Assembly (NCBI GenBank): GCA_003265685.1
Contig: QJOU01000013.1
Location: 62,001 to 126,000 of the forward strand
Source: Piscinibacter caeni
Lineage (GTDB): Bacteria > Pseudomonadota > Gammaproteobacteria > Burkholderiales > Burkholderiaceae_C
DNA: 64,000 nucleotides
Direction of reading: 5' to 3'
Below are positions 22,233 through 53,284 of the stretch, piece after piece (the first letter of the stretch is position 1; the number at the start of each line of letters is the position of its first letter). Under the pieces are notes generated by a model. It worked only from the letters and a program-made list of their open reading frames with translations. It was not told where the DNA came from and made no database searches. The position numbers and the translations under genes were made by a program.

Positions 22233-22323
22233 CATGTCCACATCAACAATTTGGAGAGAAACAATTGTTTGACTCGAACCAAATCTATATTCACGTATCC
22301 GTTGCATCAACGCGGTCGTTCGA

Positions 22324-22829: not shown

Positions 22830-22860
22830 GAGGCCTCTTGAGGGACCACAATGGCCTGGG

Positions 22861-23127
22861 ATGACGACTGCCCTGAAACTCGACGCTCACGCGCTCGAAG
22901 AAGCCGCCCTGTTCCTCCGGGATGCGGACGGACTTCTCGTCGCAGCCGGCGCCGGCATGGGCGTGGACTCCGGGCTTCCAGACTTCCGAGGCAACCAGGG
23001 GTTCTGGAACGCGTATCCAGCCCTCGGAAGCGAACGCATCCAGTTCGAGGATGTAGCGTCGCCCCTTAAGTTCTACCGCCGGCCTCGGCTCGCCTGGGGC
23101 TTCTACGGGCATCGTCTGGCCCTCTGA
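22861..23127 (+). pseudogene. Truncated second copy of the Sir2 gene
   Basis: Starting at ATG 22861, 88 residues are nearly the same as the first 88 of the Sir2 protein at 17089. They include AAGAGMGVDSGLPDFRG, and then the frame hits a stop after GFYGHRLAL. The upstream 20 bases (TGAGGGACCACAATGGCC) are also shared. The 3' two-thirds, including the catalytic histidine, is missing, so it cannot be active. The break point coincides with the broken end of the integron integrase gene. Confidence 0.85.
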
Positions 23128-23393
23128 GCTTGGTTCTGCGTTGCCTCCGCTACACCCTGCCGGCGTGCGAGCTCGCTTAGGAAAGCCTCCACCTCAGGCG
23201 CGCCCATCGCGGCAGGATGACGCTTGCCGTGAAAGAGGATGAAGCGACGAATCCAGTAGAGGTACGCCTTCTCTGTCCGCAAGCTGTATCGACGACGTCG
23301 CAAGGAGTCTCTGACCTGGTCCAACAGCCGCAGTCTCAGCGCCAGTTCATCCCCCCGCAGGGGGATAGTCAGCACATGCATAGCCACCTCCAA
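23103..23393 (-). pseudogene. Truncated integron integrase (intI N-terminus)
   Basis: The minus-strand frame starting at 23393 or 23381 encodes LLDQVRDSLRRRRYSLRTEK, YLYWIRRFILFHGKRHP, then GAPEVEAFLSELA and VAEATQNQA. This is the N-terminal SAM-like domain of IntI. Homology ends there; the last residues come from the antisense of the truncated Sir2 gene. The catalytic domain with its Arg, His and Tyr residues is absent (IntI is normally about 320-340 residues). The gene points away from the cassettes, as expected for an integron. Confidence 0.85.
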
Positions 23394-23524
23394 TGGATCG
23401 TGACAGTTCCTCGGCGGGGATTGAAGCTGTAGACTAAGTCCTTGATATGACGAAACTTTTCACACGGGACCCGTACAACGTCGCCGAAAACTGCGACAGT
23501 TCGGCCGTCTAATCCGTGTTAAGC
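23394..23524 (+). promoter_or_regulatory. Integron attI region with candidate core site
   Basis: This stretch between the intI start and the first cassette should hold attI and the cassette promoter. A GTTAAGC at 23518-23524 fits the GTTRRRY core at which cassettes insert. I place the attI/cassette boundary between its G and TT. No clear -35/-10 pair was assigned. Confidence 0.5.
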
Positions 23525-23541
23525 GCAAGCGAATACCGTTC

Positions 23542-23811
23542 ATGCACATAGGCTCGCAGTTCTCCGCCGTGCAAGGCCGCCATTTCGTGCAGGAGGTTCT
23601 ACCAGGCTGTCCGTCCTTCGGCGGCCAGCGCACCGCCGGAGCGATGCGTAGCTTCGCGCGCCGCTACTTGCCGCAGCCGCCGCACGAACCGTTGGTTCCC
23701 TTAGGCCAGCCAAGCGCCCGCATGCCGTCGCTCGCGCCTAACCCGTCAGTCAAGCGGACGGCCTGCGGCTGGCTTCGCCAGCCTCCGTCCGCCGCTTACT
23801 TCTACCGTTAG
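23542..23811 (+). CDS. Possible short ORF of integron cassette 1
   Basis: An 89-residue frame with ATG 23542 that runs into the attC site. Cassette ORFs often end inside attC, but here nearly the last third is attC sequence and the protein has no recognised feature. It may be a non-coding cassette. Confidence 0.25.
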   Translation: MHIGSQFSAVQGRHFVQEVLPGCPSFGGQRTAGAMRSFARRYLPQPPHEPLVPLGQPSARMPSLAPNPSVKRTACGWLRQPPSAAYFYR

Positions 23812-23813
23812 GC
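23736..23813 (+). repeat. Integron attC site 1
   Basis: It runs from GCCTAAC (23736) to GTTAGGC (23807), with an internal inverted repeat centred on GGCTGGCTTCGCCAGCC. The length is 78 bases. This is the recombination site closing cassette 1. Confidence 0.85.
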
Positions 23814-23829
23814 GTAGCTGGGCCCCACC

Positions 23830-24492
23830 ATGCCAACTCGCGAGAGACTCGAAGGTTTGCTTCCTATCGGCAGCCAGGTTTTGTCCGGAGGAAATCGCAC
23901 TTCGTTTCGGATAGTCAAGTACAACCAACGTGGTGTGCAAATCGCCTCAACGTCATCACGAAAGACTGCCCTGCTGCGGTATGCCAAGCTCGATCTCGTA
24001 CTGAACAACTTCCACCTTGTCGATCCGGAGCGCATTCAGGACTCCATCATGGAGCTGATGAAGCAACATGGAGTTCGCTGGACCCAGAACGAAACGTTCC
24101 TCTATGGGCTCGCGCGGGAACACCGTACTCGCACAGCAATGCCCGACTTGCTAGAGCTACACGCCGAGTTCGAGCGCCAAGTTAATGAGTGCGCTCAGAT
24201 GAGTTCCGCTGAGCGGCGCAATATGTTCGAGACAGGCCAGGCAAAGCCCGAGAGAGTCATAGTACAAACCACCGTATTTATGCGCAACCCCGCAGTTGCC
24301 GCGGAGGTCCTATTGCGCGCGAACGGTCACTGCGAGTTGTGTCGGCAGTCCGCCCCATTCAAGAGACGAAAGGACGGAACACCATACCTTGAAGTGCATC
24401 ATCGAAAGCCACTTTCGGACGGCGGCAATGACACTGTTCAGAACGCCATCGCGTTGTGCCCAAACTGCCATCGCCGTGCGCACTACGCCTAA
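23830..24492 (+). CDS. HNH endonuclease, integron cassette 2
   Basis: A 220-residue protein. The C-terminal HNH module has the CxxC pair in GHCELCRQ, the HH pair in LEVHHRKPLSDGG, and then NAIALCPNCHRRAH. The N-terminal 130 residues are a different domain (LPIGSQVLSGGNRTSFRIV) that may bind nucleic acid. The stop codon TAA lies in the first core of attC2, as is typical for gene cassettes. Likely a cassette-borne restriction-type nuclease. Confidence 0.85.
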   Translation: MPTRERLEGLLPIGSQVLSGGNRTSFRIVKYNQRGVQIASTSSRKTALLRYAKLDLVLNNFHLVDPERIQDSIMELMKQHGVRWTQNETFLYGLAREHRTRTAMPDLLELHAEFERQVNECAQMSSAERRNMFETGQAKPERVIVQTTVFMRNPAVAAEVLLRANGHCELCRQSAPFKRRKDGTPYLEVHHRKPLSDGGNDTVQNAIALCPNCHRRAHYA

Positions 24493-24564
24493 CCCCTCCA
24501 TCGAGCGGACGCCCAACAGTCGGCTTCGCCGCCTGTCGGTCGCCGCTCATGTCGAACGTTAGGC
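24487..24564 (+). repeat. Integron attC site 2
   Basis: It runs from GCCTAAC (24487) to GTTAGGC (24558), 78 bases, with arms CTCCATCGAGCGGAC and GCCGCTCATGTCGAAC around a TCGGCTTCGCCG centre. It is very similar to attC3 and attC4, as in chromosomal-type integrons. Confidence 0.9.
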
Positions 24565-24575
24565 CCCACAAATCC

Positions 24576-25010
24576 ATGCTTCTCATCGCTCAGGCCATCG
24601 GCGCTGGATTGCTGATTGCAGTGAGTTCCGCCGTGGTGCTGCTGTGGCTTCTGCTCCTTGCCATGTCGTATCGCGCGAGCGGTCTCATGCCTTGGGTTGC
24701 GGCGGGGGTAGTTCTTTATGGCCTTGCCTTTATCGCAGTGGCCGCCGTAGCTGGAGTGCCAGGCATTCTGTGGGCAAAGCACATAGCAAGTGCTGTCCCG
24801 CCTTCGTGGCGGCGAGTTACGAAAGTCGCTGAACGCACCGGCACCTCTGTCCTTCTATGTGGCCTCGGCGTTGCGCTCGCAGTTCTTGTCGGTGAACAGT
24901 TTCGCCCGAAGAATCCTACCGACGGCTGCGTAAGCTGGCGCAGCGCCGCAGCCTCCGCTGCGCTGGCGGCTGGGGGAAGGCCGGGCGTAGATTGCCCGGT
25001 ACAAAAATAG
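24576..25010 (+). CDS. Small membrane protein, integron cassette 3
   Basis: A 144-residue protein. ATG 24576, just after attC2, is the natural cassette start; the longer frame upstream crosses attC2. Three hydrophobic segments are visible: LLIAVSSAVVLLWLLLLAM, AAGVVLYGLAFIAVAAVAGV, and one near residues 88-105. No family is recognised. A run of 13 G residues follows the stop. Confidence 0.65.
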   Translation: MLLIAQAIGAGLLIAVSSAVVLLWLLLLAMSYRASGLMPWVAAGVVLYGLAFIAVAAVAGVPGILWAKHIASAVPPSWRRVTKVAERTGTSVLLCGLGVALAVLVGEQFRPKNPTDGCVSWRSAAASAALAAGGRPGVDCPVQK

Positions 25011-25011
25011 C

Positions 25012-25024
25012 GGGGGGGGGGGGG
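25012..25024 (+). repeat. Homopolymer of 13 G
   Basis: Thirteen consecutive G residues lie directly after the stop of the cassette-3 gene and before attC3. Such tracts are prone to slippage, but this one is outside any frame I accept. Confidence 0.8.
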
Positions 25025-25035
25025 CAGCCGGTGTG

Positions 25036-25113
25036 GCCTAACCCTTCCATCGAGGGGACGTCTTACAGCCGGCTTCGCCGTCTGCAAGCCGCCCCTCATG
25101 TCAAACGTTAGAC
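25036..25113 (+). repeat. Integron attC site 3
   Basis: It runs from GCCTAAC (25036) to GTTAGAC (25107), with a CCGGCTTCGCCG centre and the shared arms CCTTCCATCGAG and CCCTCATGTCAAAC. Confidence 0.9.
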
Positions 25114-25116
25114 AAC

Positions 25117-25527
25117 ATGCTTCCACGTAAGGTATTCATCGCCGAGGCGCTTGTCCTCGTACTGCCCGCCATCCTCTTCCTCGCCATTACGCTACCCGAA
25201 GTCTTGCGGGTGACGTCCCTGGTTCTCCGCCTCCGTGAAACGTCTCATCCTGAGATGAGCCTGCTCCAAGCTTTGTCCGGCGTCCTTCAGTGGACGGCCG
25301 GAGCGTATGCCATCTCTGTGCTCGCATGGTTGGCAGTCAAAACTGCGCAGCGCCGCTCGTTCAAGTTCGGTTCTATCTTCTGGCTTGGCGTCGCCGCAGG
25401 GGCCGCAAGCACTGTGCTCATGTATGCACCGTTCGGCCCTTATGCGACTGCCGCCGTTGCAGGACCATCCGCTCTTCTAGCGGCACATTCCGTCTATCTC
25501 CAATCCCGGAGCGCTCATGCGGCCTAA
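25117..25527 (+). CDS. Small membrane protein, integron cassette 4
   Basis: A 136-residue protein starting 3 bases after attC3. Hydrophobic segments are near residues 7-27 (AEALVLVLPAILFLAITLP), 55-72, 84-100 and 108-125, so it has about four transmembrane helices. The stop lies in attC4. Function unknown. Confidence 0.7.
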   Translation: MLPRKVFIAEALVLVLPAILFLAITLPEVLRVTSLVLRLRETSHPEMSLLQALSGVLQWTAGAYAISVLAWLAVKTAQRRSFKFGSIFWLGVAAGAASTVLMYAPFGPYATAAVAGPSALLAAHSVYLQSRSAHAA

Positions 25528-25593
25528 CCCCTCCATCGAGCGGACAGCCGAAGGGCTGCGCCCTTTGGCTGCCGCTCATGTCAAACGGTAGGC
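25522..25593 (+). repeat. Integron attC site 4, right core degenerate
   Basis: It starts with GCCTAAC at 25522 and ends with GGTAGGC at 25587, where the consensus would be GTTAGGC. The centre is GAAGGGCTGCGCCCTTT. The changed right core may weaken recombination with the next cassette. Confidence 0.8.
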
Positions 25594-25807
25594 TGCTAAC
25601 AAATACAGCCTCCTATGAAGACTGTGAGCGGTCGGTGCTCGCCACCTCAGTTCCAAGTATTGGCCTCTGTCGCATACGTGTCCTACAAGATCGGGCACCT
25701 GGAGGCAAGTCGCGAGGGCCTGCGAAATCTTGCATTCGTATCTCTTTGGTCAGTGCGGCCTTCTGCTCAGGTAATCTGGGTGACGGTGCCTAATCTAGGG
25801 CACCGGA

Positions 25808-26419
25808 ATGAGTCTGCAGGCTCCAATTCTCGTTTTCACCTTCGGTGCTCTGCTGGGTGTCGCTGTGTACCCAGCCATGGCCGCCGCGCAGTGGTGCGCG
25901 TCGAGGGCAGTCCGCCGCGGTATGTGGCTGCACTTGATCGTGACGATGAGCCCGTGGTTCCTCGCCATGGCCGCTTGGCTTGAGCTCCTTGATGCGGTGC
26001 TGCTGCCCCTCATCCCGTACGCCACTCGTCGTAAGGAGGGACTGGCTCATTCGGTCTACCTATGTGCTGAAGATCGACAGGTGCATCGCGATGTCTTCAT
26101 GCGAGATGTACGAGGTGAACTTCCTGCTTTCAGCCACGTTGGCCTCGTAGAAGCGCCGCGGCGCGACGAGCACTGTCTCCCAGATCTGGTAGATGCCGTC
26201 GTCGAGCTCACCTCGCGTGCGCCTGTGGCCTCGTGGACGGCTACGACCATCGCCGGCGCCCCAGCCGACATCGAGCTCGTCAGCAAGTCCCCGAAGTCGT
26301 GGACGGCGAAGGCGCCCCGCGGCCTGGAGACCCGTATCTCCGTGACCGCCAACCCTGCCGAGGAGCTTCAGAAGCCGGCCATCGTCGACTTCATCTGCGT
26401 GGATGGTGGCACGCTCTAG
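25808..26419 (+). CDS. Chimeric frame: membrane-type cassette protein running into unrelated DNA
   Basis: The first 75 residues from ATG 25808 look like a small membrane protein (APILVFTFGALLGVAVYP, then LIVTMSPWFLAMAAWLELL). After about 26040 the frame runs across antisense sequence of a nuclease remnant, and the rest (to 203 residues) is probably not native. A truncated last cassette is likely, because no attC follows. The frame starting at 25615 is less convincing. Confidence 0.35.
   Translation: MSLQAPILVFTFGALLGVAVYPAMAAAQWCASRAVRRGMWLHLIVTMSPWFLAMAAWLELLDAVLLPLIPYATRRKEGLAHSVYLCAEDRQVHRDVFMRDVRGELPAFSHVGLVEAPRRDEHCLPDLVDAVVELTSRAPVASWTATTIAGAPADIELVSKSPKSWTAKAPRGLETRISVTANPAEELQKPAIVDFICVDGGTL
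26046..26215 (-). pseudogene. Short PD-(D/E)XK nuclease remnant
   Basis: Minus-strand translation gives YQIWETVLVAPRRFYEAN and then ESRKFTSYISHEDIA. This matches YQVWEMVLVAPRRFYEAD and ARKFTSYVSLGDIA of the remnant at 20059. Only this C-terminal piece is present. The 360 bases to its right hold nothing I can identify. Confidence 0.6.
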
Positions 26420-26577
26420 GCGTGGCGCGTGGTGTGTGTAGCGTCAAGCTAATGCGCGGCGCAAGGGCCGGCGAGTCACCGGCCGCGGCCGCGTGAAGTG
26501 GCCGCGAGCAGATGGCTAGATTGCTCAGTGCCTCGCCATTCTCGCCCGGCACCGCCGCGTGCCAGGCGCGGAAGGCT

Positions 26578-26886
26578 TCAGTTCCGGTCGCTGCGCGGCG
26601 CGCGCGATGTGTCCGTCCTGTCCGTCGTGCCGGGGGCGCCTCGGTCGGTGTTTCTCACGCCGGGCGCATTGCGAACGTTGGTGTTGTGGTCTACGTCTAC
26701 GTCCACCGCACCGCGCGCGTTTTTCCCGACGTCGACGTCGACGCCTGGCACCCCGCGGTTCATCTCTTGCTGGGTGGTCGTCGTTCCGGTCGTCGTTGCT
26801 GCGGTGCCGCGGTCGTTTGTCTGCGCGATAGCTGGTACGCAAGCCGCAGCAAACGCCATGGTCGCAAGTGTCAGGGCGGTTCTCAT
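26578..26886 (-). CDS. Small exported Asp/Thr-rich protein
   Basis: A 102-residue protein. ATG 26886 is preceded by GAAGGAGAA and followed by a signal peptide (MRTALTLATMAFAAACVPAIAQ). The mature part is low in complexity (GVDVDVGKNARGAVDVDVDH) with many Thr, Asp and Arg residues. It is probably a periplasmic or surface protein. It lies 98 bases after the end of the restriction gene on the same strand. Confidence 0.55.
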   Translation of the reverse strand: MRTALTLATMAFAAACVPAIAQTNDRGTAATTTGTTTTQQEMNRGVPGVDVDVGKNARGAVDVDVDHNTNVRNAPGVRNTDRGAPGTTDRTDTSRAPRSDRN

Positions 26887-26984
26887 AGCTTCTCCTTCAG
26901 GTGATGGGATAGCCACGCGCTGCTTATGGCAGCACGCGATTGCGCTGAGCAAGAGGTATACCCGCAACACGGACCCGGACTGCA

Positions 26985-27881
26985 TCACGTCGCCGGTCTC
27001 GCCTCCTTCTTGAAGACTTGGTCGAAGTGCCAGCCAACGAAGTCCCGGAGGACTTTGTGCTCAGATCGCACCGGCTCTAAGGCCAGAGCACCGTGGTGCC
27101 GCAGCAGGACCTCTTCGAACCGCGAGGTCCCATGGACCTGCTCCGAGACCAAGATGCGCCGGTCGGCACCGATGTGGAAGGCTCCGAGGTCGAAGAGCTT
27201 GTGGTGCAGGCTGCACAGGGCCACGCCGTTGTGCACGGCGTCCGGGCCACGCGCCTGGTGCCACTTCACGTGCGCGGCTTCCAGGCCTACCGTGATGGAG
27301 CCGATGCGAAGATCGAGCTCGCAGACGGCGCATCGGTACTGGTAGGCCTGCAGCACGGCATTGCGGAAGTTGGGGTCGCGGCGCCGGCGGGTCGTCGACT
27401 CGGTCTCTTCCGAGACCTCTAGCCCCACGGCAGCGAGGATGTCCTCGTGGAGGGTCTCGGGGAAGTGGGCGTCGAGCACGCGCTGGGCGACGCGGCCGAT
27501 GAGGGCCGGCCGGCGCTCGAGCTCTTCGGCGACGTCCGCAAAAAAGTGGCCGCGGGCGCCGGCCGCGCGCAGCTCTGACTTCAGCGGGTCGCTGTTGGAC
27601 TGGCGCGTGCGCATTTCCTGGTCCGCCTCGACCACCCATAGCCCGTCGTTCTGCAAGCGCCAGAACGGGTACTCCGGATGCACCGCCTTCGCGGCCGGAC
27701 CGAATTCACGGATGAGCTCGCCGCGCTTCTGCTCGCACTCGGCAAACCGCATCTCCCGAGCGCCCCTTTGCCAGCTTGCTAGAGCCAGCAGGATCAGCAG
27801 CGGCTTGTGCGGAGCGCGCTTGTCGCCGTTGCGCCAGACGTTGAGCTGCTCGAAGCGCGCCTCGATTGGATCCGTCCCCAT
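26985..27881 (-). CDS. Phosphorothioate-DNA restriction endonuclease, ScoMcrA-like (SBD + HNH)
   Basis: A 298-residue protein starting at ATG 27881. The N-terminal domain matches the sulfur-binding domain of type IV enzymes: FEQLNVWRNGDKRAPHKPLL, then EFGPAA and HPEYPFWRLQNDGLW. The C-terminal HNH module has CAVCELD, LEAAHVKWHQARGPD and NGVALCSLHHKLFD. This family cuts DNA carrying phosphorothioate links made by dnd-type systems. No dnd genes are present here, so it would exclude DNA from modified donors. Two decayed copies of its tail lie at 16834 and 19905. Confidence 0.88.
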   Translation of the reverse strand: MGTDPIEARFEQLNVWRNGDKRAPHKPLLILLALASWQRGAREMRFAECEQKRGELIREFGPAAKAVHPEYPFWRLQNDGLWVVEADQEMRTRQSNSDPLKSELRAAGARGHFFADVAEELERRPALIGRVAQRVLDAHFPETLHEDILAAVGLEVSEETESTTRRRRDPNFRNAVLQAYQYRCAVCELDLRIGSITVGLEAAHVKWHQARGPDAVHNGVALCSLHHKLFDLGAFHIGADRRILVSEQVHGTSRFEEVLLRHHGALALEPVRSEHKVLRDFVGWHFDQVFKKEARPAT

Positions 27882-28143
27882 GCCCCGACCTGGTCGTTGT
27901 CGCGCGAGCGTACCAGCGCCGTACCGGCCTCGCCGTCGCAACCTGAGGCACTTGTTGCGCCTTGAGGCCCCCCACGCGGGTGGCGCTCCAGCGTCCCGAA
28001 GCGCGGTGTGCCGATAGAGGCGCGCGCGCCGCGTAGCCCACCTTGGCCGTTTCGTCGAGCAACGCGGTCTCGGCGGCCAGGCCGATGAACTGACACACCC
28101 GGCCGGTAGCTTCCACGTCACACCATTTCAGGAGAACCGACAG

Positions 28144-28383
28144 ATGGCCAAGGCGCCAGTTCGCTCGTTCACCGTTCTCGCAGTCGCCGCAGTTGCAGCG
28201 GTGGCCAGCGCCATGCATCCGGCGGCCGATACGGACGACCGAGTTCAGCCTCAGGAGACCGCCGCGAGCAGCCAGCACCTTGGCCACTGGGCCGATTACG
28301 GGCGGCCGAACCTCTGTGCCGAGGCTGCGCCCCAAGCATCGGCGCCAGCAGCCTCCGCTGCGGACCCCTCGATCTGCCTCTGA
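28144..28383 (+). CDS. Small exported hypothetical protein
   Basis: A 79-residue protein with a plausible signal peptide (VRSFTVLAVAAVAAVASA). The mature part is short and Ala/Pro-rich with two Cys residues. The ribosome site AGGAG precedes the ATG by about 10 bases. No family is recognised. Confidence 0.5.
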   Translation: MAKAPVRSFTVLAVAAVAAVASAMHPAADTDDRVQPQETAASSQHLGHWADYGRPNLCAEAAPQASAPAASAADPSICL

Positions 28384-28430
28384 CTTCGGACCGAATCGTC
28401 GCGATGTCGACGTGACGGCGATGCCGACCT

Positions 28431-28491
28431 CCGTTTGGCAACGTAGAGGCACTCTAGAGGCATCGTAGAGGCAACGTACGTTGCCAAACGG
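28431..28491 (+). repeat. 11-bp-unit repeat element with 15-bp inverted ends
   Basis: It begins CCGTTTGGCAACGTA and ends with the exact inverse TACGTTGCCAAACGG. Between them lie the 11-mers CTCTAGAGGCA and TCGTAGAGGCA. It sits in the gap after the small exported gene. It is the same family as at 14531, 14583 and 33859. Confidence 0.8.
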
Positions 28492-28618
28492 GGCGTGGCG
28501 GCCAGCAGAGCCAAGGCGTCAGAGCGCCCACCAACTCAAGCGCGTCGAGTGCTGGATGACCGGCAAGCGTGCCGGGATAGAGAAGCGGACCCAAGCTCAG
28601 CACCGTGGAGGCACAAAG

Positions 28619-28640
28619 AGGGGCGCCCTTGGGCGCCCCT
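28619..28640 (-). terminator. Rho-independent terminator for the 28.7-29.4 kb operon
   Basis: A perfect 10-bp stem (AGGGGCGCCC, 2-base loop) lies 48 bases past the stop at 28688. Read on the minus strand it is followed by CTCTTTG, a weak T run. Confidence 0.55.
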
Positions 28641-28687
28641 TGAGGGACGGCAATACAGATACAGCGACCGTCCTACTACGGAACCAG

Positions 28688-28897
28688 CTACGGAGCCGGC
28701 GGCTTCGCCTCGCTGTCTTGGCCGACCGCCTCACCGACCGGCGGACCTTCTTCGGGTCCGTATGGCGTCCGCGGATCGGGGGACGTGCCTTCTCCGGGCT
28801 TGTCTTTCTTGGGCTCGTCCTTTTCGGGCTTGTTCTCAGCCGGCGCCGGAGTCGCCGGAACACCGTCAGCCGAAGGCGATTGGCGAGGCTGGCTCAT
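28688..28897 (-). CDS. Small Pro/Lys/Glu-rich hypothetical protein
   Basis: A 69-residue hydrophilic protein (KPEKDEPKKDKPGEG) that starts 10 bases after the glycine-zipper gene on the same strand. It is probably disordered. The start ATG 28897 is chosen for that spacing. Function unknown. Confidence 0.45.
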   Translation of the reverse strand: MSQPRQSPSADGVPATPAPAENKPEKDEPKKDKPGEGTSPDPRTPYGPEEGPPVGEAVGQDSEAKPPAP

Positions 28898-28907
28898 CTG
28901 GCCCGCT

Positions 28908-29396
28908 TCAGCGACCGTCGCCGTCCGAATCACCTGGCATCGCGCGCTCTGCGCGGTCGCTCAGGCGCTGCCACGCATCGCGTGTGGCGTGCTTCGCGTT
29001 CTCCCATTCGAGCTTCGAGCTGCCGCGGGTGGTGCTCCAGTCACGGCCGAGGTCGGATTCGACCTCGTCGAAGCTCTTCCCGGGGTACCGCGTGTACGAG
29101 TTCACGCCATGCTGGTACGCCGGCCCGTAGTCATCGTAGGTCGAGCCGGTGGTGACGTAGGGACGGTCGGCGTAGTTGGAGCGCCAATAGGCGTCCTCTT
29201 CCTTCGGGTCGACGTTCATGGCCTTGCCGGCAAGCGCGCCGGCCACGGCACCAACGGCCGCACCCACAGCGGCGCCGACCGGCCCGGTCATCCCGCCAAC
29301 GGCCGCACCCGCTGCAGCGCCGCCCGCCACGCCGCCGGCCACGCCGCCGACAACAGCACCGGTGCCGGCCGCCTTCTTGTCTGTCGTGTCGCCCAT
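28908..29396 (-). CDS. Glycine-zipper protein
   Basis: A 162-residue protein. Residues about 10-60 form a Gly/Ala-rich zipper (AVVGGVAGGVAGGAAAG and AVGAAVGAVAGALAG), and the rest is hydrophilic with many Asp, Tyr and Arg residues. Zippers of this kind pack in or on membranes and often occur in stress-induced envelope proteins. ATG 29396 is preceded by AGGAGAC. It is followed by a small charged protein gene and a terminator. Confidence 0.65.
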   Translation of the reverse strand: MGDTTDKKAAGTGAVVGGVAGGVAGGAAAGAAVGGMTGPVGAAVGAAVGAVAGALAGKAMNVDPKEEDAYWRSNYADRPYVTTGSTYDDYGPAYQHGVNSYTRYPGKSFDEVESDLGRDWSTTRGSSKLEWENAKHATRDAWQRLSDRAERAMPGDSDGDGR

Positions 29397-29460
29397 CTCA
29401 GTCTCCTGGTGAAGTCGAAGTAACCGAGGAGAGCAAGCAGGGTGCCGTGCGGTACGTCGC

Positions 29461-29907
29461 TTAGCGTGGCCGCGGCCGTGCCGTCGAGGCGTCTTCCCGC
29501 CCGCCAAGGGAACCGCGGCCCGCCGACGACTTCGACCGACTCTTCAGGAGGTCGTCGAGCCGCTGGCGCAGGTCCGTCACGTCCATCCCCTTGGAGAAGC
29601 AGAGGTCGAAGACCTTCGCTTCGCCCATGTCCCGCTGCCGGATCATCAGGTCCCCGCTGTGAGCGATCAGGACAACAGGGTGCGGCATCCTCGCGCGCAT
29701 CTCCTTCGCAACCTCGTATCCGCTCATGCCCGGCATCTGGATATCGAGGATTGCAGCGTCCGGCGGCCAGCGCTCGGCCAGCTCCAAGGCAGCCGGACCG
29801 TCGCAGGCGACTTGGACCTCGTAGCCGCTCAGCTCCAGGAGCATCGCCAGCGAGGTAGCTGCGTCGCAATTGTCGTCCGCGACGAGGACGCGGAACCGTT
29901 TGCCCAT
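29461..29907 (-). CDS. Single-domain response regulator receiver
   Basis: A 148-residue protein. The receiver features are D11/D12 (VLVADDN), phospho-acceptor D55 (AAILDIQMPGMSG), a Ser in IAHSGD and Lys in CFSKGMD. No output domain follows; the tail is short and basic. Such proteins relay phosphate or act by protein contact. No histidine kinase is present in the window. ATG 29907 is chosen over the codon 15 bases upstream because it gives the usual MGKRFRVLVADD start. Confidence 0.85.
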   Translation of the reverse strand: MGKRFRVLVADDNCDAATSLAMLLELSGYEVQVACDGPAALELAERWPPDAAILDIQMPGMSGYEVAKEMRARMPHPVVLIAHSGDLMIRQRDMGEAKVFDLCFSKGMDVTDLRQRLDDLLKSRSKSSAGRGSLGGREDASTARPRPR

Positions 29908-30036
29908 GTGCTTTCGCAGCAAGGCAGGTGCCGAATTCTCGAAGGGGCTCGTGAGATAGCCCCTTCGCTCGCGGCATGGAGCCCCACCGCACCCAATGCA
30001 GAAAAGTGCGTGATGGGCTGCACAAACGACTGCGAC

Positions 30037-30459
30037 TTAGCCAGAAGGCTTGTTCGGGTTCAGGGGGTTGGCGCGTCGGCGCAGATGTTCCTCTGCGAGC
30101 TCTTGCGCCAGCGCTGTGACTTCAAACCGTCCGGACTCGTCGCAGTCGACGAAGTCCTCGATGAGGCGCCCGATCTGCCGCGCGAGGATGTGGTCCGGGC
30201 TGTCGCCAACCGGCAGGTTGCCGCTGGAGCCGCACGAAAGGTTCGGCGACAGCAGCTGAGCGACCGAGAAGCCGAGCCTGTCGCTCAAGAGCGCCAGGTG
30301 GCTCGCGAGTTCAGGGTTGTGCTCGTTGCACGCCAGGATGCCCTCGAGCAGCTTCTTCGGGACCTTCCTGCTCTTAGCGAATCCGTCGACCGTCATCCCG
30401 CTTTCGTCCAACAGATATCGCACGTTCGCGCGCAGCTCGCGCAGGAAAGAGATGTTCAT
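30037..30459 (-). CDS. HTH-type (XRE-like) regulator
   Basis: A 140-residue protein. Residues 4-60 look like a helix-turn-helix domain (LRANVRYLLDESGMTVDGFA followed by PKKLLEGIL and LASHLALLSDRLG). The C-terminal part is acidic. It may control neighbouring genes. It lies 130 bases upstream of the response regulator on the same strand, without clear coupling. Confidence 0.6.
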   Translation of the reverse strand: MNISFLRELRANVRYLLDESGMTVDGFAKSRKVPKKLLEGILACNEHNPELASHLALLSDRLGFSVAQLLSPNLSCGSSGNLPVGDSPDHILARQIGRLIEDFVDCDESGRFEVTALAQELAEEHLRRRANPLNPNKPSG

Positions 30460-30582
30460 GCCGCTGTCGCCGCCGTGTTGCGCTGCGGCATACCTTAGGC
30501 CGAGGTCCAGCGGACTTCATCCCTATTCCGAACGAGGCGGGGGCGTGCAGACAGGGGGGTCGAAGCCTGTCGGTTCCCGCGA

Positions 30583-30635
30583 ATTCCGGGAATTCACTGC
30601 GCGGTGGGGGGACCGCGTCGTAAAAACCCGGAATC
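30583..30635 (+). repeat. 53-54 bp interspersed repeat, copy A
   Basis: It starts ATTCCGGGAATTCACTGCGC and ends TAAAAACCCGGAATC. It is identical to copy B except for the first bases. The termini GATTCCGGG/CCCGGAATC are inverted in the full copies. Confidence 0.85.
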
Positions 30636-30847
30636 GGCCCGCCGGCACGATGAGTTCAGTCCCCGCTGGGATGAGGTCACGGACTCGGGCCGGGCGTCCA
30701 AGTGCACTGCTGGGGTGTCGAGCTGGTAGGGGATGGCGGACGGTGCTGACCGAGCCCCAGTTGACCTCGGTCCCGTACGAAAGACGAGGAGCCGAGCCCA
30801 GCAGGCGAGGCTGCCAGACAGCACCTGGCGGACTCGGATTCGGCACC

Positions 30848-30901
30848 GATTCCGGGAATTCACTGCGCGGTGGGGGGACCGCGTCGTAAAAACCCGGAAT
30901 C
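30848..30901 (+). repeat. 54 bp interspersed repeat, copy B
   Basis: Full copy from GATTCCGGG to CCCGGAATC in the gene-free stretch between the HTH gene and the lipoprotein gene. The 210 bases between copies A and B contain no gene I can support. Confidence 0.85.
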
Positions 30902-30969
30902 TTGGCGTCGGGGCCAATGAGTTCAGCAGGCGAAGCCCTGAGTTCATCCGAGGCCGCACCTACGACGCG

Positions 30970-31509
30970 TCATCGACGGCAACCAGCTTCCGGCACTTGC
31001 TGCAGCGGGTCCGAGAGCCACTTCTCCGTGGCGCCGGCCACTTTCTGCCAGTTCTCGGCCGCCGCACGCACGACCACCTCGGACTTGCACTCGGGGGTCT
31101 CGCGGATGTCGGCCATCAGGAAGAGCGCCTGGTTCAGCGGCGTCGGAAGGTCCAGCGGTCGGCGTGCGATGCGGGTCGACAGGACAGTCGCGTCTCCGAC
31201 TCGGTCTCGGAAGACGACGAGTCGCGACTGCTCGTAGAAGACGGCTCCGCTTCCCGTCTGCGCGACGCCCATCGTTCGAGGGCTGACGAAGCATCTCTGC
31301 CAGGCGGCCTCCAACCGCTCGGCGGCGCCGGCCGTGGTTAGCTCCGAGGAGCAGACCCTGACCGGTGAGGACGCGGCGGAGAGCATCTCGTCGCGCGTCT
31401 GGGGCAGAGCACATCCGACGAGTGCGAGACACGCCAGAGCACTGGCAGCTGCGGAGCGGGTGGCCGGGGTGGACTGAGTCCGGTGGCAGGAAGGCGGCAT
31501 AAGAGGCAA
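30970..31509 (-). CDS. Putative lipoprotein
   Basis: A 179-residue protein with a lipobox (ALACLALVGC, Cys33) after a long, partly basic leader. The start could be internal. The mature part includes CSSELTTAGAAERLEAAWQ and has no recognised domain. It is flanked on both sides by copies of the 54-bp repeat. Confidence 0.55.
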   Translation of the reverse strand: MPLMPPSCHRTQSTPATRSAAASALACLALVGCALPQTRDEMLSAASSPVRVCSSELTTAGAAERLEAAWQRCFVSPRTMGVAQTGSGAVFYEQSRLVVFRDRVGDATVLSTRIARRPLDLPTPLNQALFLMADIRETPECKSEVVVRAAAENWQKVAGATEKWLSDPLQQVPEAGCRR

Positions 31510-31627
31510 GCGGCGCCGAAGCGGAAGTTGAGGGCGGCGCAGGGTAGTCGGCCGACGTTTCCGTCACAACCACCCGAAGGGGCCGACTGGGCCCGACAAC
31601 AACGCCGAACCGCCGCGTGAGGCTGCC

Positions 31628-31681
31628 GATTCCGGGAATTCACTGCGCGATGGGGGGACCGCGTCGTAAAAACCCGGAATC
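31628..31681 (+). repeat. 54 bp interspersed repeat, copy C
   Basis: Full copy with a single change (GCGCGATGG for GCGCGGTGG). It lies in the gap between the lipoprotein start and the end of the coiled-coil gene. Confidence 0.85.
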
Positions 31682-31688
31682 CTGGCGC

Positions 31689-32522
31689 TCAGCTGCCCTG
31701 GCCCTCCGGAGCCGGCCGGCCGGTCCGGATGCTGGCCAGATCCGGCATGGCGGCCCGGCGCTTGGCGCTCCAGGCTTCGTAGTCCTGCAAGTTGACCTGG
31801 TTCAAGTGCCGGTTCTGGTGCAGGGACCCGAGGTACTCGGCCGCGCGCCGGCGCATGTCGACGAGCCGAGCCGCTGTCGGCTCCCGCTCGTACTGCTCGA
31901 GCATCCTCATCAGCTGGGGGCCGGTGTATCCGCCCTCCATGTCGAACTGGAAGTGCCGGCCGCCGAAGAGCTCCTCGAGCTCCTTGAGGCTGGCGCCGTT
32001 CACCCGCAGGTCGACGAAGTTGACCAGGGCATGCACCTCGTCCAGGAAGCCGCCCTTGCGCGTCGGGTCGTCAATGGGGCCCCAGCGCTTCTCGGCGATG
32101 CGGTCCGCCTTCTCCCGGCGCAGGCGTAGCTGCTCTGCATCGTGGTCGACCTTCGCCTTGCGGGCGATGACCGAGGCCTGGTCCGCCTCCTCGGCGAGCT
32201 CGTGAAGGGTTCGAACTGCGAGCGTTAGCGCGTCCAGCTGCTTCGCAGTCATGAGCTTCTCGAAGCTGTCCCGCAGCCGGCGGATGCCGGTAGCCACCGT
32301 CTTGGCCTGGGTCTTCAGGCGCTTGGTCTCCTCGTCTCCGACGTACCGGGCCCGGTGGGCGAAGCGCTCGAAGAGCTGCTCGGACCGGGTCGGCTTGGCG
32401 GATGCCTTCGGGGCAGCCTTCTTCGCCCGGGAGCCGGAACTGACCGAAACCTCGGTCGGCTGGTCGCCGGGCCGGTCGGTGGGCTGCAGCTGGGAGTCCG
32501 GGTTCGGGGCGCCGTCGGTCAT
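31689..32522 (-). CDS. Hypothetical coiled-coil protein
   Basis: A 277-residue protein. The first 45 residues are disordered and basic, and the centre (residues 60-150) is strongly helical and charged (RLKTQAKTVATGIRRLRDSF, AEQLRLRREKADRIAEK), typical of coiled coils. The C-terminal part has no recognised domain. It lies between repeat copies C and D, which makes a link to plasmid maintenance possible but unproven. Confidence 0.6.
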   Translation of the reverse strand: MTDGAPNPDSQLQPTDRPGDQPTEVSVSSGSRAKKAAPKASAKPTRSEQLFERFAHRARYVGDEETKRLKTQAKTVATGIRRLRDSFEKLMTAKQLDALTLAVRTLHELAEEADQASVIARKAKVDHDAEQLRLRREKADRIAEKRWGPIDDPTRKGGFLDEVHALVNFVDLRVNGASLKELEELFGGRHFQFDMEGGYTGPQLMRMLEQYEREPTAARLVDMRRRAAEYLGSLHQNRHLNQVNLQDYEAWSAKRRAAMPDLASIRTGRPAPEGQGS

Positions 32523-32716
32523 GGCTTCATTGTGGGGCTCGGCGGCGCCGCAGCGAAACCGGGGTGTCGACTGGACACAGCGAAGCGATTGGCCAGCGGG
32601 TCTTGCCCCAGAGCTTGGAGCTCTGGTCGGTGGGGCCGGGCTGTGAGGTTGGAGCCGGGGATGAGACTCGAACTCGGCTCGGCGGTCCGGCGCCGGTAGT
32701 CGTTACGGGACCGGGC

Positions 32717-33274
32717 TCAGTCAGCCGACCCTTCAGGGCCATCGAGCCTGGGCGGCTCCGGGTCGATGACCGCCATGGCGTCCTGCAGCTGGACCCAGGC
32801 CCGAATCTCCTGCTCCTCGACGACGCCGCCGCAGGACGGCATTGGTAGCAGGAACTCGACGGCGAACGGGAGGTGGTGTCGGTGGGCGGTCGCCGAGACC
32901 GACTCGCCCGGCGCGACGGTGACGGGAGCGGCCGCGCCCTCGGCGACTGGGAAGTAGACGGCCAGGACGCTCAGCGCCAGGTCGTTCGTGCCGGGCCCGG
33001 GTCGGCCCCAGGTGAAGCCGTCGTCGTGCGGGGCCCGGTGGTGGTGGAGTCCGCCGGCCGCGGCGCCGGCCGGGAGCCGGACCTCAAAGCTGTAGTCCTC
33101 AGCCTCATAGCCTGGGCCCGTCTTGGTCCGGCGGCAGATCAGGTCGAGTGGGCCCGGGGTGGGGTGGAACGGCGGCAGGATGCGGAACGCACCTGACGTC
33201 GAATCGACCCGACCGGACACGGGGAAGCCAGCATCGAAACGATGAACGCCCTCCGGCTGCACGTCTTGCGACAT
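32717..33274 (-). CDS. Hypothetical protein
   Basis: A 185-residue soluble protein. ATG 33274 follows AGGAGAGGGCCGTC and is preferred to the Arg-rich upstream extension. The sequence is rich in Pro and His (AGGLHHHRAPHDDGF) and in predicted beta strands (NDLALSVLAVYFPV). No family is recognised. Confidence 0.5.
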   Translation of the reverse strand: MSQDVQPEGVHRFDAGFPVSGRVDSTSGAFRILPPFHPTPGPLDLICRRTKTGPGYEAEDYSFEVRLPAGAAAGGLHHHRAPHDDGFTWGRPGPGTNDLALSVLAVYFPVAEGAAAPVTVAPGESVSATAHRHHLPFAVEFLLPMPSCGGVVEEQEIRAWVQLQDAMAVIDPEPPRLDGPEGSAD

Positions 33275-33858
33275 GACGGCCCTCTCCTGTCTGTACCGGC
33301 TCCGCGGTGCGGCCGGCGATGTCGTTAGGCCGCCTGGCTTCTGGCTAAGCGGTGTGTGAGTCCGAGTGTATGGGTCCGCACAGCGGGCGCAACCGGTACC
33401 AATTGGGGAGTGTTGTCGTGCTCCTGCCATGCTTGAGCGGCTTCCCTGGTCGCTCTCTCGGAATCGATGCGTGCCGGCTCTGGGGCGCCTTCGACGGTCC
33501 TCCGCTGAATGACCACCCTCCTCTTGCCTCACCTCTTACCCCTTCCCGGCGCCGGTTGCGGCTGGGGTCTGGGCCCTCCAATGGGCTCCGAATGAACCAC
33601 TCCTGACGACGTCGAAATTCAATGTTTTCAGGTGGTCCTGAACCCACCATTTTTCTTTGCTCCCCACGTTACAAAGACACAACGGGTGTCAAGTCGGAGA
33701 GGCATAAGCGTTACAAGAAAAACGTCAAGTCGAATGGCCATTCCAGTGGCCCCGGAGCGCCCAACTCGGCCCCTGGAACAGCTCCTGATGCCCATCCTCG
33801 ACTGCTGACCGAGGCATACCGAGAGAAGCCATGGATGCCGGCCAATCAGTGCGGCCCA

Positions 33859-34067
33859 GTTTGGCAACGTAGCGGCATCAGTTAGGCATCAGCTTGGCAC
33901 TCTAGAGGCAACAACTTGGCAACAACGGCCCCGCTGGGCGTTTGGCACTAGTTCGGCAACAGCAAGGCATCAGTTTGGCACTCTAGAGGCAACAGTTAGG
34001 CAACAACGAAGTCGCGGCCCTGTTTGGCATCAACTTGGCACTCTAGCGGCATCAGTTTGGCAACAAC
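33859..34067 (+). repeat. Field of 11-bp phased repeats in three blocks
   Basis: Three blocks at 33859, 33940 and 34022 each begin GTTTGGCA and end GGCAACAACG. Inside each, every 11th base restarts a unit ending in GGCA, for example TCAGTTAGGCA, TCAGCTTGGCA, CTCTAGAGGCA, ACAACTTGGCA and ACGTAGCGGCA. Block 1 has five internal units, block 2 five and block 3 three. The blocks are separated by 13-14 GC-rich bases. The 11-bp period puts all GGCA motifs on about one face of the helix. Confidence 0.85.
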
Positions 34068-34148
34068 GACCGCCGCGCCTTGACGTTTCGCCATTCTCCC
34101 GCTTAAAACTTGACGCTTTCCGATCTTCGCGTTTGAACTCACTCCACT

Positions 34149-34217
34149 TTTCCGGGTTTTTACGACGCGACCCCCCCACCGCGCAGTGAATTCCCGGAAT
34201 TCCGGGTTTTGACGACC
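34149..34217 (-). repeat. 54 bp interspersed repeat, copy D, with an extra partial end
   Basis: Copy D is in the opposite orientation to A-C and spans 34149-34201. It is followed directly by a second, partial end (ATTCCGGGTTTTGACGAC) at 34199-34217, as if two elements had met tail to tail. Confidence 0.8.
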
Positions 34218-34333
34218 GAACGTGCGGATTTCGATTTGACAAGTCGCAATCCGCCCGTTTGTCGTTTGCGGGCGGAATCCTCTACGTTCATAGAGCTTTT
34301 GCCTCGCAGGCCCTGCGGCGGAGCGCCCGACGC

Positions 34334-34957
34334 TCAGCAGGCCTCGGGAAGCGGACGGCGCTTGGGTCGGTTGAATCGCTGCGCCGGTGTCGCTCCCTTG
34401 CGCTTGACCTTCAGCCAGGTCTCGGACCGTTGGCCGGCCAGGTACAAGGAGTCCAGGCGTTTGGCAACGATGCCTTCGAGCTCAAGCAACCGCGCCTGGT
34501 GGAAGAGCTGCGAGCCCTGCCCTTCAAGGCCGGTCACTCGGAGCAGCGACGGCGCCCCTTGGCGGAGCAGCTGTTCAAGGCAAGCCTGCCGTCGCCGGAG
34601 CGGCTGGTGGCGGATGTCCCGGCCGCGGTGGACCACGACGTCGAAAACGCAGTAGACGACCGACGCGAGGCCGGGCTTCCATCGTCGGGCCTTCGCCCGG
34701 GCATGCAGCTTGTCGAAGTCGGTGCGGCCGAGCTCGTCAAGCACCACGACTTCGCCGTCAAGCACATGCTCCCCTGCGGGGAGCTCGGCCAGGCCGCGTA
34801 CGACTTCTGGGAACCAGGTTGTGGCGTCAGCGCCGTTGCGGGTCTTCAGCCGGGGGCCGCCCTCACCGGCCCACGCCATCAACCGGTAGCCGTCCTACTT
34901 CAGCTCAAAGGTCCATGCTGGGTCGTCGAACGGCGCCCGAGCCTGCCCCAGCAGCAT
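34334..34957 (-). pseudogene. ATP-dependent DNA ligase adenylation domain, amber codon at the active site
   Basis: The minus-strand frame from ATG 34957 reads LLGQARAPFDDPAWTFELK, then TAG (34895-34897), then DGYRLMAWAGEGGPRLKTRN and on to GEVVVLDELGRTDF, GIVAKRLDSLYLAG and TWLKVKRKG. This is the ligase domain seen in LigD. The stop replaces the Tyr of KYDGYR directly after the catalytic Lys, so it is a pseudogene unless TAG is read through. The OB fold is missing. It differs from the ligase domain of the intact ligD at 3256, so it is not a recent duplicate. Confidence 0.75.
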
Positions 34958-34988
34958 CGGCTCAATGCTGCTCAGTCGCTCAGGCAGT

Positions 34989-35195
34989 TCAGCTCGACCG
35001 GCCAGAGGCTCCGCCTCCGCCGCCCTTGAGATGGGCCTCGACGTTCTTGGCGCTGTTGCCCACCGCCGCCACTGCCTTCTTGAGCTCCTCCGGGCTGACC
35101 CCGAACTTCTTGGCCCAGTCGCGCAGCTCGTAGTCCTGGTTCACATCGATGAGCTCGCGGTCGCGTCCGCCGCTCTTGGTCTTGTCGTCGGCCAT
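34989..35195 (-). CDS. DUF3606 family protein
   Basis: A 68-residue protein matching DUF3606: the core is DRELIDVNQDYELRDWAKKF followed by GVSPEELKKAV and GNSAKNVEAHL. The family is small, soluble and of unknown function, common on proteobacterial chromosomes and plasmids. The ATG is preceded by AAGGAG. It is divergent from umuD and just upstream of the broken ligase gene, so a shared LexA-controlled promoter region is possible. Confidence 0.8.
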   Translation of the reverse strand: MADDKTKSGGRDRELIDVNQDYELRDWAKKFGVSPEELKKAVAAVGNSAKNVEAHLKGGGGGASGRSS

Positions 35196-35274
35196 GCCAA
35201 CTCCTTTCGCAGAGTCGATGGCCTCCTCTGGCAACGGCTGTGCCCGTCCTGACGGATCAAAGGCAACTCCTATA

Positions 35275-35290
35275 CTGTATGGATGTACAG
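35275..35290 (+). promoter_or_regulatory. LexA box of umuD
   Basis: CTGTATGGATGTACAG matches the LexA consensus CTGT-N8-ACAG. It overlaps a -10 hexamer (TATACT, 35271-35276), with CTGACG 16 bases upstream as -35. The ATG of umuD lies inside the box, about 7 bases from the -10, so the transcript would be leaderless. Confidence 0.85.
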
Positions 35291-35741
35291 CATCGAGTGT
35301 CGGTGGGCCGACATCACGGGGGAGCCGGTGCCCGCGGCCAGCGGGGCCCGTCGAACCATCGTTGCCCTTCCGCAGTCGGTCCAGGCCGGCTTCCCTTCGC
35401 CGGCGGAGGACCACGCGGTCAAGCGGATCGACCTGAACGAGGTGCTCATCAAGCACCCGCAGTCCACCTTCCTGATGCGGGTGCGCGGACCGTCCATGCG
35501 AGAAGCGGGCATCGACGACGGGGACGTCGTGCTGGTCGACCGCGCCATCACGCCGTGCCACGGGCACGTGGTTGTGGCCGTGGTCGACCACGAGTTCACC
35601 GTGAAGCGCCTTTGGAAGCGCGGCTCGCGCGTGAAGCTCCAGGCAGCCAATCCCACCTACCCCGACATCGTCCCGAAGGACGGACAGGAGGTGGAAGTTT
35701 GGGGCGTCGTGACGAACGCCATTAAGTCGATGCCGCTGTAG
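35283..35741 (+). CDS. umuD: UmuD-like SOS mutagenesis protein (self-cleaving S24 peptidase)
   Basis: A 152-residue protein. The catalytic pair is S71 (VRGPSMREAGI) and K108 (FTVKRLW), 37 residues apart as in E. coli UmuD. The cleavage site is probably the Ala-Gly in QSVQAGFPSPAED. UmuD is cleaved with RecA help after DNA damage and joins UmuC as DNA polymerase V. The LexA box overlaps its start. Unlike the usual umuDC operon, umuC lies 2 kb downstream, with three other genes between. A later in-frame GTG at 35328 is a less likely start. Confidence 0.9.
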   Translation: MYSIECRWADITGEPVPAASGARRTIVALPQSVQAGFPSPAEDHAVKRIDLNEVLIKHPQSTFLMRVRGPSMREAGIDDGDVVLVDRAITPCHGHVVVAVVDHEFTVKRLWKRGSRVKLQAANPTYPDIVPKDGQEVEVWGVVTNAIKSMPL

Positions 35742-35822
35742 CGCCGCCCGGCGACCGCGGGCTTGCGGGCTGACGGCGCCACGGGCACATTCGCGTGACT
35801 TCTTGTTACAGGGGTTCGGCCG

Positions 35823-37028
35823 ATGGCGCTGCGGTTCCGGAAGACCTTCAAGCTCGCCCCCGGCGTCCGGTGGACCATTTCCGGCTCCGGCAGCAGCTGG
35901 AGCTTCGGTCCCCGAGGCGCCTCCATCAGCGTGGGCAAGCGCGGCGTCTACGCCAACTACAGCATCCCCGGCACCGGCCTGTCATACCGCGAGCGGCTCG
36001 GTGGCCGCAGCGAGACGCCGTCCGCCCAGCTCGGACCCCCGCAGACGACCAAGGTCAGCCTGACCTGCGGCATCGACGATGAAGGCGTCCTGAGCTTCAC
36101 CGATGGCGCTGGCATGCCACTCAGCGAGGCGGTGGTCGAGGCCGCCAAGAAGCAGAACCGGGACGCCATCCTGGCGCTCATCCAGCGCAAGTGCGACGAG
36201 CTGAACGACCAGGTCGAGGCGCTCGGCCGGCTTCATCACGACACCCCGGACTCCAGGGTGAAGCCCAAGTTCGAACCGCAGCGCATCAACCTGGTAGCGC
36301 CCGAGCGGCCCACTCTCCGCGTCCCGACATTTCTTGAAGGACTCAGGAAGTCCGTCCGCCTGGCCATCCAGGAGGAAAACGACCGGGCGCTAGCCCGTTT
36401 CGAAGGGGACACGGAAGAGTTCGAGCGTCAGCGGCGTGCGTTCTACGCGGCCGAGACCAAGCGTCGAGTTCTGGTCGAGCAGCTGATCTACCAGGACGTC
36501 CAGGCCATGGAGGACTTCCTCGAGGCAAACCTCCAGGACATCGTCTGGCCGCGGGAGACCCAGGTTGCGGTGGACATCGGGGATGGAGGTCTCACGGTCC
36601 AGCTGGATGTCGACCTGCCTGAAATCGAGAACATGCCGACCAAGTCGGCTGCCGTGCCGGCGCGCGGACTGAAGCTCTCCGTGAAGGAGCTGCCGGCTGC
36701 CAAGGTCCGCCGGCTCTACGCGGACCACGTGCACGGCATCGTGTTTCGCCTGGTCGGCGAGACCTTCGCCGCCCTGCCCGTCGCCCGCACGGTCGTCGTC
36801 TCAGGCTACTCCCAGCGCAGCAACAGTGCCACCGGCCACCTCGAGGACCAGTACCTGCTCTCAGTCAAGGTCGCCCGAGAAGCCTGGGAACAGCTTGCCT
36901 TCGACCGGCTTGCCGAGCTCAACGTGGTGGACTCGCTTGCCCGCCACGAGCTGCGCCGCGATCTGACCCGCATCGGAGAACTGCGCCCCATCAGACCATT
37001 CCAGGAGGAGGAGACATGCGAGGTTTGA
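35823..37028 (+). CDS. DUF4236-domain protein
   Basis: A 401-residue protein. The first 55 residues are a clear DUF4236 domain (MALRFRKTFKLAPGVRW, then SWSFGPRGASISVGKRG and PGTGLSYRE). The rest has a charged helical middle (RRAFYAAETKRRVLVEQLIY) and a C-terminal region without recognised motifs. DUF4236 has no known function. The last 13 bases overlap the start of the next gene, suggesting coupling. Confidence 0.8.
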   Translation: MALRFRKTFKLAPGVRWTISGSGSSWSFGPRGASISVGKRGVYANYSIPGTGLSYRERLGGRSETPSAQLGPPQTTKVSLTCGIDDEGVLSFTDGAGMPLSEAVVEAAKKQNRDAILALIQRKCDELNDQVEALGRLHHDTPDSRVKPKFEPQRINLVAPERPTLRVPTFLEGLRKSVRLAIQEENDRALARFEGDTEEFERQRRAFYAAETKRRVLVEQLIYQDVQAMEDFLEANLQDIVWPRETQVAVDIGDGGLTVQLDVDLPEIENMPTKSAAVPARGLKLSVKELPAAKVRRLYADHVHGIVFRLVGETFAALPVARTVVVSGYSQRSNSATGHLEDQYLLSVKVAREAWEQLAFDRLAELNVVDSLARHELRRDLTRIGELRPIRPFQEEETCEV

Positions 37029-53081: not shown

Positions 53082-53155
53082 GCAGGCTTAGCCTAGCGGC
53101 CAGGTCGCGGCCTTCCAAGCCGAACAGATGGGTTCGACTCCCATAGCCTGCTCCA
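53082..53155 (+). tRNA. tRNA-Gly(TCC)
   Basis: Acceptor GCAGGCT pairs with AGCCTGC and CCA is encoded. The loop CTTCCAA gives anticodon TCC. The outer anticodon-stem pair is mismatched. First gene of the array. Confidence 0.85.
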
Positions 53156-53284
53156 TTCATGAGCGCATCGCTCGTGAGCTGACCCGCCTCGTCTGGCCAG
53201 CTCGCCCTGGTGCGTTGATGAATGGATGAGCTACGCCACCGCGCTGCCCTTCCGCAGCGCAATGGCCTAGCCAGGACAGTTCTC

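Follow-up and report, generated by a model that had tools for sequence, protein, structure and literature searches.

Modular 11-bp direct-repeat arrays at four loci of a betaproteobacterial plasmid: a candidate protein-binding scaffold

In ParMRC segregation systems, a ParR superstructure binds to parC, an array of short direct repeats; in plasmid R1, the parC repeats are 11 bp long. In pSK41, parC is composed of 10-bp repeats and is located directly upstream of parM-parR (PMC4911067). The stbDRs of plasmid R388, which are bound by StbA and surround the stbABC promoter, are described as two sets that each contain five repeats of 9 bp, with 2-bp spacers, and as having more copies elsewhere in the maintenance region (PMC3098194). 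Among regulatory sites, the PHO box consists, by its current definition, of two direct repeat units of 11 nt each (PMC4415409). Rickettsia palindromic elements are known as repeats with copies between and inside genes, including in-frame insertions (PMC10969869). Here we describe a family of 11-bp phased arrays that shares some features with these systems.

The window, i.e., the whole stretch of 64,000 nucleotides that was analyzed, comprises bases 62001–126000 of C7 (131,386 b), one of the 310 contigs that make up a genome of 6.87 Mb. Of C7, 114,417 of 131,386 bases align with the 599,444-b megaplasmid of Methylibium petroleiphilum PM1 (NC_008826.1), and a 51-kb stretch of the window aligns with 99.998% identity. 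In a genome of another genus than that of the window (G462, taken as PM1), the arrays occur at the same coordinates, and all four array loci of C7 and PM1, termed A to D, are identical letter for letter.

Locus C (window positions 33859–34068) consists of three blocks of GGCA-N7 units with a spacing of exactly 11 bp; each block starts with GTTTGGCA and ends with GGCAACAACG, and the blocks contain 6, 6, and 4 GGCA units, respectively. Block C1 (33859–33927, forward strand) comprises GTTTGGCA, five N7-GGCA units and ACAACG. Block C2 (33940–34008, forward strand, 69 nt) differs from C1 at 13 positions, all of them within N7, and block C3 (34022–34068, forward strand) represents a basic module of 47 nt. 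The pattern GGCA-N7-GGCA-N7-GGCA occurs 14 times in the window, as compared to a mean of 0.00 in 100 shuffles; ten of these matches fall in the locus C field, and four are located at 14590–14626 and 28437–28473. In a Markov control for one strand, 198 of 200 sequences lacked the three-unit pattern, of which 12 occurrences were observed. Spacing, counts and shuffles thus confirm the first-pass annotation of this DNA, which had recognized an 11-bp GGCA field in three blocks with a fixed start and end; its start at 33859 holds, while the true end, 34068, is one base further downstream than had been noted. The likewise reported gene-free, A+T-richer surroundings of about 1 kb correspond to a gap of 1059 bp (33275–34333) without a listed gene in the annotation transferred from PM1, a gene table which is incomplete by its own description; short ORFs are readable in this gap, and its GC content is 0.592, as compared to 0.644 for the whole window. 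Locus C is located 585 bp upstream of the nearest gene start, that of a DUF6166 gene, and also adjoins an ORF with a DNA-ligase domain. An RNA element was considered as an explanation of locus C and rejected: the window matched only tRNAs in Rfam at gathering scores (30 matches), no match was obtained for 33200–34400 (E up to 1) or 22000–36000 (E up to 2), and the C blocks did not fold beyond chance (z of +0.9 to +1.9 versus shuffles).

Alignment of all copies revealed a family module of approximately 47 bp, GTTTGGCA-N7-GGCA-CTCTAGA-GGCA-N7-GGCA-ACAACG, to which two units have been added in C1 and C2, and whose centre reads CTCTAGC in C3. The earlier inventory, while correct for locus C, had overlooked this common module with its nearly constant CTCTAGA centre, as well as the copies at 14533–14630 and 28433–28489 and a decayed copy beside parB. 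The family comprises four loci on one betaproteobacterial plasmid. Locus A includes a 35-nt copy with the inverted ends GTTTGGCA...TGCCAAAC (A1, 14533–14567, forward strand) and a complete 47-nt module (A2, 14584–14630, reverse strand), both within an ORF of 642 aa (13865–15793, forward strand), where the arrays occupy aa 223–256. Locus B (28433–28489, forward strand) consists of GTTTGGCA, three N7-GGCA units and the inverted end TGCCAAAC; it lies 552 bp upstream of a gene start, in a gap without a listed gene in the transferred PM1 annotation (27882–28907). The unit spacing is exactly 11 bp in A2 and B, as in every C block. Locus D, detected in a whole-genome search by its similarity to locus A (E = 7.7e-7), is decayed, with the GGCA core itself mutated; it is situated outside the window just after parB (PM1 57274–57411; C7 from about 130310), between parB and a gene that converges on it. 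When the complete PM1 plasmid (599 kb) was scanned with a weight matrix, the four loci were returned, with family scores of up to 28.9; two more sites, at 328265 and 158348, stood alone as two-unit matches with scores of 16.1 and 13.3, respectively.

Comparison of the copies separates fixed segments from variable N7 slots. None of the 13 differences between the 69-nt blocks C1 and C2 affects any of the 34 fixed positions (P = 3.8e-5; block interior alone, 0.003). Between A2 and C3 (or C1), only 1 of 33 fixed positions differs, as compared to 12 of 14 slot positions (P = 2.1e-8), and with GGCA left out the figures are 1 of 17 versus 12 of 14 (P = 7.6e-6). Since the slots were defined after the alignment had been seen, and since loci A to C were found through GGCA, these P values are guides only. 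When the 47-nt modules were compared pairwise (15 pairs of six modules; A1 was left out as incomplete), six of the 15 pairs were non-significant, namely A2-B (0.17), A2-D (0.54), B-D (0.24), C2-C3 (0.17), and C1-C2 and C1-C3 (0.056 each); without GGCA, values of 0.53, 0.57, 0.48 and 0.008 were obtained for A2-B, A2-D, B-D and B-C3, respectively.

The exact 11-bp phase, the polarity, the fixed ends and the saturated slots point to a protein-binding scaffold, and the retention of the fixed segments between A2 and C, with slots saturated, favours one that is occupied head to tail. We consider it nearly an even call that a putative sequence-specific DNA-binding protein of this plasmid uses the arrays as direct-repeat binding scaffolds. 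Each turn of the helix would offer such a protein one unit centred on GGCA, and its copies would line up head to tail; GTTTGGCA and GGCAACAACG would mark where the scaffold ends, and the CTCTAGA unit where its middle lies. The three-block locus C would then serve as the main scaffold and loci A and B as smaller sites away from it, and D would be a decayed relic by parB. The role of the arrays might be structural, i.e., condensation of the plasmid, anchoring, or an accessory part in segregation; a structural role appears likelier than gene regulation because the sites are located in a gene, far from gene starts, or between converging gene ends. If protein-bound, the arrays would add to the origin and the centromere another cis-acting element of a conjugative megaplasmid, and its simple modular code would lend itself to direct tests of spacing and polarity. 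The more specific proposal of an undescribed kind of scaffold, in which modular 11-bp arrays with constant end modules and a constant central unit, separate from oriV and parS, are coated head to tail by a new plasmid protein that condenses or anchors the plasmid or aids its partition, while the slots set affinity or register, seems unlikely to us. Among the titles and abstract starts listed, from a collection with few subscription papers, none describes the arrays of this plasmid.

The first-pass annotation had suggested that the field might be an iteron-like origin or a plasmid centromere. Either function would fit with direct repeats that lie in A+T-richer DNA with no listed gene, and also with the position of the decayed locus D beside parS-like palindromes. 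However, the order on C7 is repB, an iteron-like field, parA, parB, and then D with two 21-bp palindromes inside, so that these replicon parts are found together elsewhere on the same contig. The iteron-like field between repB and parA contains 9 copies (identity ≥61%) of AGGTGAGCTTNTNCAGGAAGC-type repeats. The palindromes after parB, AAAACTTCT-N3-AGAAGTTTT, are probably parS, because of their position after parB, as in two relatives: repeated palindromes of other sequence follow parB in two of the eight parB relatives examined, a Variovorax plasmid and L531 with TTTAGATTCTAAAC-type palindromes, while an Acidovorax parB relative shows 63-bp direct repeats. The palindrome motif does not occur at locus C, which is about 34 kb away from it on C7 and 19 kb in PM1. 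In iteron-type origins the repeats adjoin the rep gene of their binder, and in ParABS centromeres parS palindromes adjoin parAB; neither arrangement was found at locus C, next to which the transferred PM1 table lists no rep or par gene. Because the iteron-like field lies at rep-parA and the parS-like palindromes after parB, locus C is probably neither the replication origin nor the main centromere or segregation site, and we regard these two assignments as extremely unlikely. The polar, helically phased scaffold that had been proposed along with them still appears to be the best reading. In Variovorax sp. SRS16 plasmid 2 (L540:2320–2704), four near-identical TTGTCCCTAGTAGGGACAA palindromes, one with a central change, follow shortly after parB and probably represent a parS cluster.

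The C7 stretch from about 113775 to 129362 (15.6 kb), which contains a tRNA array, rep and parA, does not align in any part with the PM1 megaplasmid, and parB of PM1 is shortened at the junction of the missing stretch. Since rep and parA are absent with this stretch and parB is shortened, the PM1 plasmid is probably, as judged from this comparison, a derived form. The tRNA array (window positions 53082–59638) contains 35 tRNA genes according to ARAGORN, or 30 by Rfam, and a gene coding for RtcB (57615–58823); repB, the iteron-like field and parA follow. PM1 carries its own set of 27 tRNA genes, the first of which form a cluster from 243.4 kb onwards.

Among the described plasmid systems, the stbDRs of R388 share the 11-bp repeat distance with the arrays, which have blocks of 4–6 units, but the likeness is formal. 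The stbDRs surround the promoter of stbABC and have the known binder StbA, whereas the arrays show no link to a promoter and the unit sequence differs; no stb-like gene is named near locus C, and none was detected among 65 of 105 genes scanned against Pfam and NCBIfam, databases in which StbA may be missing. Like parC of ParMRC systems, the arrays are short direct repeats. However, parC of pSK41 adjoins parM-parR, whereas parM of the PM1 plasmid (104853–105866) is about 66 kb away from locus C, with the arrays at 19–57 kb; none of them is positioned immediately upstream of parM-parR.

PHO boxes and the units bound by OmpR/PhoB-type proteins resemble the arrays in that they are built of 11-nt units, one part of which is better conserved than the other, and the two direct repeat units of the PHO box (PMC4415409) speak for an operator of such a protein or of some other regulator that binds promoters through 11-bp direct repeats. 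Nevertheless, we deem an operator very unlikely: the nearest gene starts are 585 bp (C) and 552 bp (B) away, A is situated in an ORF and D between converging genes. OmpR/PhoB operators are promoter-proximal, with a cognate regulator carrying a DNA-binding domain, whereas the arrays lack a promoter context and no cognate winged-helix regulator was found; the sole response regulator seen nearby, encoded between B and C, shows a receiver domain only, without a DNA-binding domain, although a regulator might be encoded elsewhere. A sigma-70-like promoter was not found in 33000–34500 either, which says little because shuffles average just 0.2.

The search for a cognate protein of the putative scaffold covered 65 of the 105 genes listed in the PM1 stretches shared with C7; these 65, chosen as small or unnamed, were compared jointly with Pfam and NCBIfam. 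Matches of a DNA-binding type, with one member each, were Exc, HTH_17, MazE/AbrB and PrlF antitoxins, a wHTH-PRTase-associated family, and an integrase fragment; none of them is tied to the arrays, and a cognate protein was not found among these genes. The parB product was also considered as binder and set aside after a weak test, in which a scan for four-fold 4-mer arrays with a period of 9–13 within about 1.5 kb of 14 parB homologues from other genomes and of the Variovorax locus found none; the scan also misses the decayed locus D. Isolated two-unit GGCA pairs occur in 6 of 15 parB loci other than that of the plasmid itself. Besides the lack of a cognate protein in this search, the six non-significant module pairs, the mutated core of D and the position of A within an ORF count against the scaffold.

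The main rival explanation, which we consider possible though doubtful, is that of a short modular repeat, selfish or inert and similar in kind to RPE/MITE elements or tandem repeats, which spread within one plasmid: the 47-nt module would have moved or been copied, C would have grown by local duplication, and ends would have recombined into the inverted forms of A1 and B. Like Rickettsia palindromic elements and MITE-like repeats, the family has copies between and inside genes, and both orientations occur. Inverted ends are present in A1 and B and absent from A2 and C, and strong hairpins are predicted for B (13-bp stem, z of –8.2 for 28433–28490) and A1 (–5.2), with a weaker one for A2 (–3.8). 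A segment of about 60 aa which holds A1 and A2 is missing from a 28%-identical Acidovorax homologue and from a weak paralogue of the 642-aa protein, as might be expected of an insertion of such a repeat; among 399 genomes of the order, only its own was found to contain the 642-aa gene itself. In locus D, core and slots have drifted alike, the loci share no conserved context, and the relatives searched are without a copy except for the PM1 plasmid. In contrast to RPE or MITE families, only four loci exist, on one plasmid; no target-site duplication was seen by eye at A1 or B, no transposase is linked, and the main locus, C, is purely direct and without a hairpin. The constant segments and saturated slots of A2 versus C would be unexpected under neutral copying, although recognition by a mobilising enzyme could yield them. 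The first-pass annotation had named random scatter through related chromosomes, without a link to maintenance loci, as an argument for a selfish repeat; the copies are few and clustered within 38 of the 599 kb of the PM1 plasmid (P about 0.001), in its parAB replicon part, and the decayed copy adjoins parB and the parS-like spot, yet locus A lies within a gene, so that the expectation is half borne out. If selfish, the family would be a compact 11-bp modular element confined to one replicon, with one copy in coding sequence.

In the searches run, the family was not found beyond the four loci, neither elsewhere in both host genomes nor in relatives, plasmids, phages or viral contigs. The pattern GGCA-N7-GGCACTCTAGAGGCA was present in 1 of 40 genomes of relatives, the own genome, and the opening pattern GTTTGGCA-N7-GGCA-N7-GGCA in 3 of 399 genomes of the order (the own genome, G055 and G100), the single matches of G055 and G100 being without further units. 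A similarity search with locus A in 149 relatives retrieved two genomes, the own one and G462, in which other matches were at chance level (E ≥ 0.3). Among plasmids, only PM1 was retrieved, for C at E of 1e-5 and for B at E of 1; with E up to 10, six further records with pieces of 20–25 b appeared, and the phage search yielded two records of one phage with a 27-b piece (E of 0.8).

In viral contigs, the opening pattern GTTTGGCA-N7-GGCA-N7-GGCA was found in 34 stretches, and the core pattern GGCACTCTAGAGGCA-N7-GGCA in none. A special link to phages was rejected: GGCA arrays at 11 bp, present in at least 120 stretches, were matched by the controls GGCA at 10 bp (at least 120 stretches) and ACGG at 11 bp (75), and no period-11 peak was seen outside the seed arrays in 3.70 Mb (5 at 11 versus 17 at 12, 16 at 9 and 3 at 10). 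Of the arrays of at least 5 units in the loci examined, 28 of 130, 25 of 141 and 7 of 75 had a spacer identity <0.6 in the three array sets.

A scan of genome contigs for the same design resulted in 13 stretches from several phyla, whose 11-bp arrays differ in sequence from those of the plasmid; on visual inspection, both the CTCTAGA centre and the GGCAACAACG close are missing from all of them. Contigs L488, L491, L492 and L494 (Bacteroidales and Bacillota) contain fields in which units of roughly 11 bp occur in direct as well as inverted orientation, e.g., TTGCGAAAGTC and TTCGATAGTTC. The Acidovorax carolinensis plasmid, pACP3.1, was without a three-unit match. About 1 kb from its homologue of the locus-A gene, it has 11-bp phased repeats of the GRCACC type (TRF scores of 40 and 55), which are suggestive, but only that, of support for the scaffold reading. 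The 4-kb stretch without a listed gene near this homologue (L202:23958–28054) comprises six 31-bp tandem repeats and four copies of a 54-nt hairpin repeat, besides the 11-bp GRCACC arrays.

Integron attC sites were discarded as an explanation of the arrays; the two attC-like 78-bp sites of the window (GCCTAAC...GTTAGGC), which flank a small ORF (23736–24564), are of another form. The first of them is predicted to fold with –36.8 kcal/mol, and a stricter attC test gave no match. Together with an N-terminal fragment of an integron integrase at 23103–23381 (70 of 315 model positions, E of 2e-22), these sites possibly represent an integron remnant.
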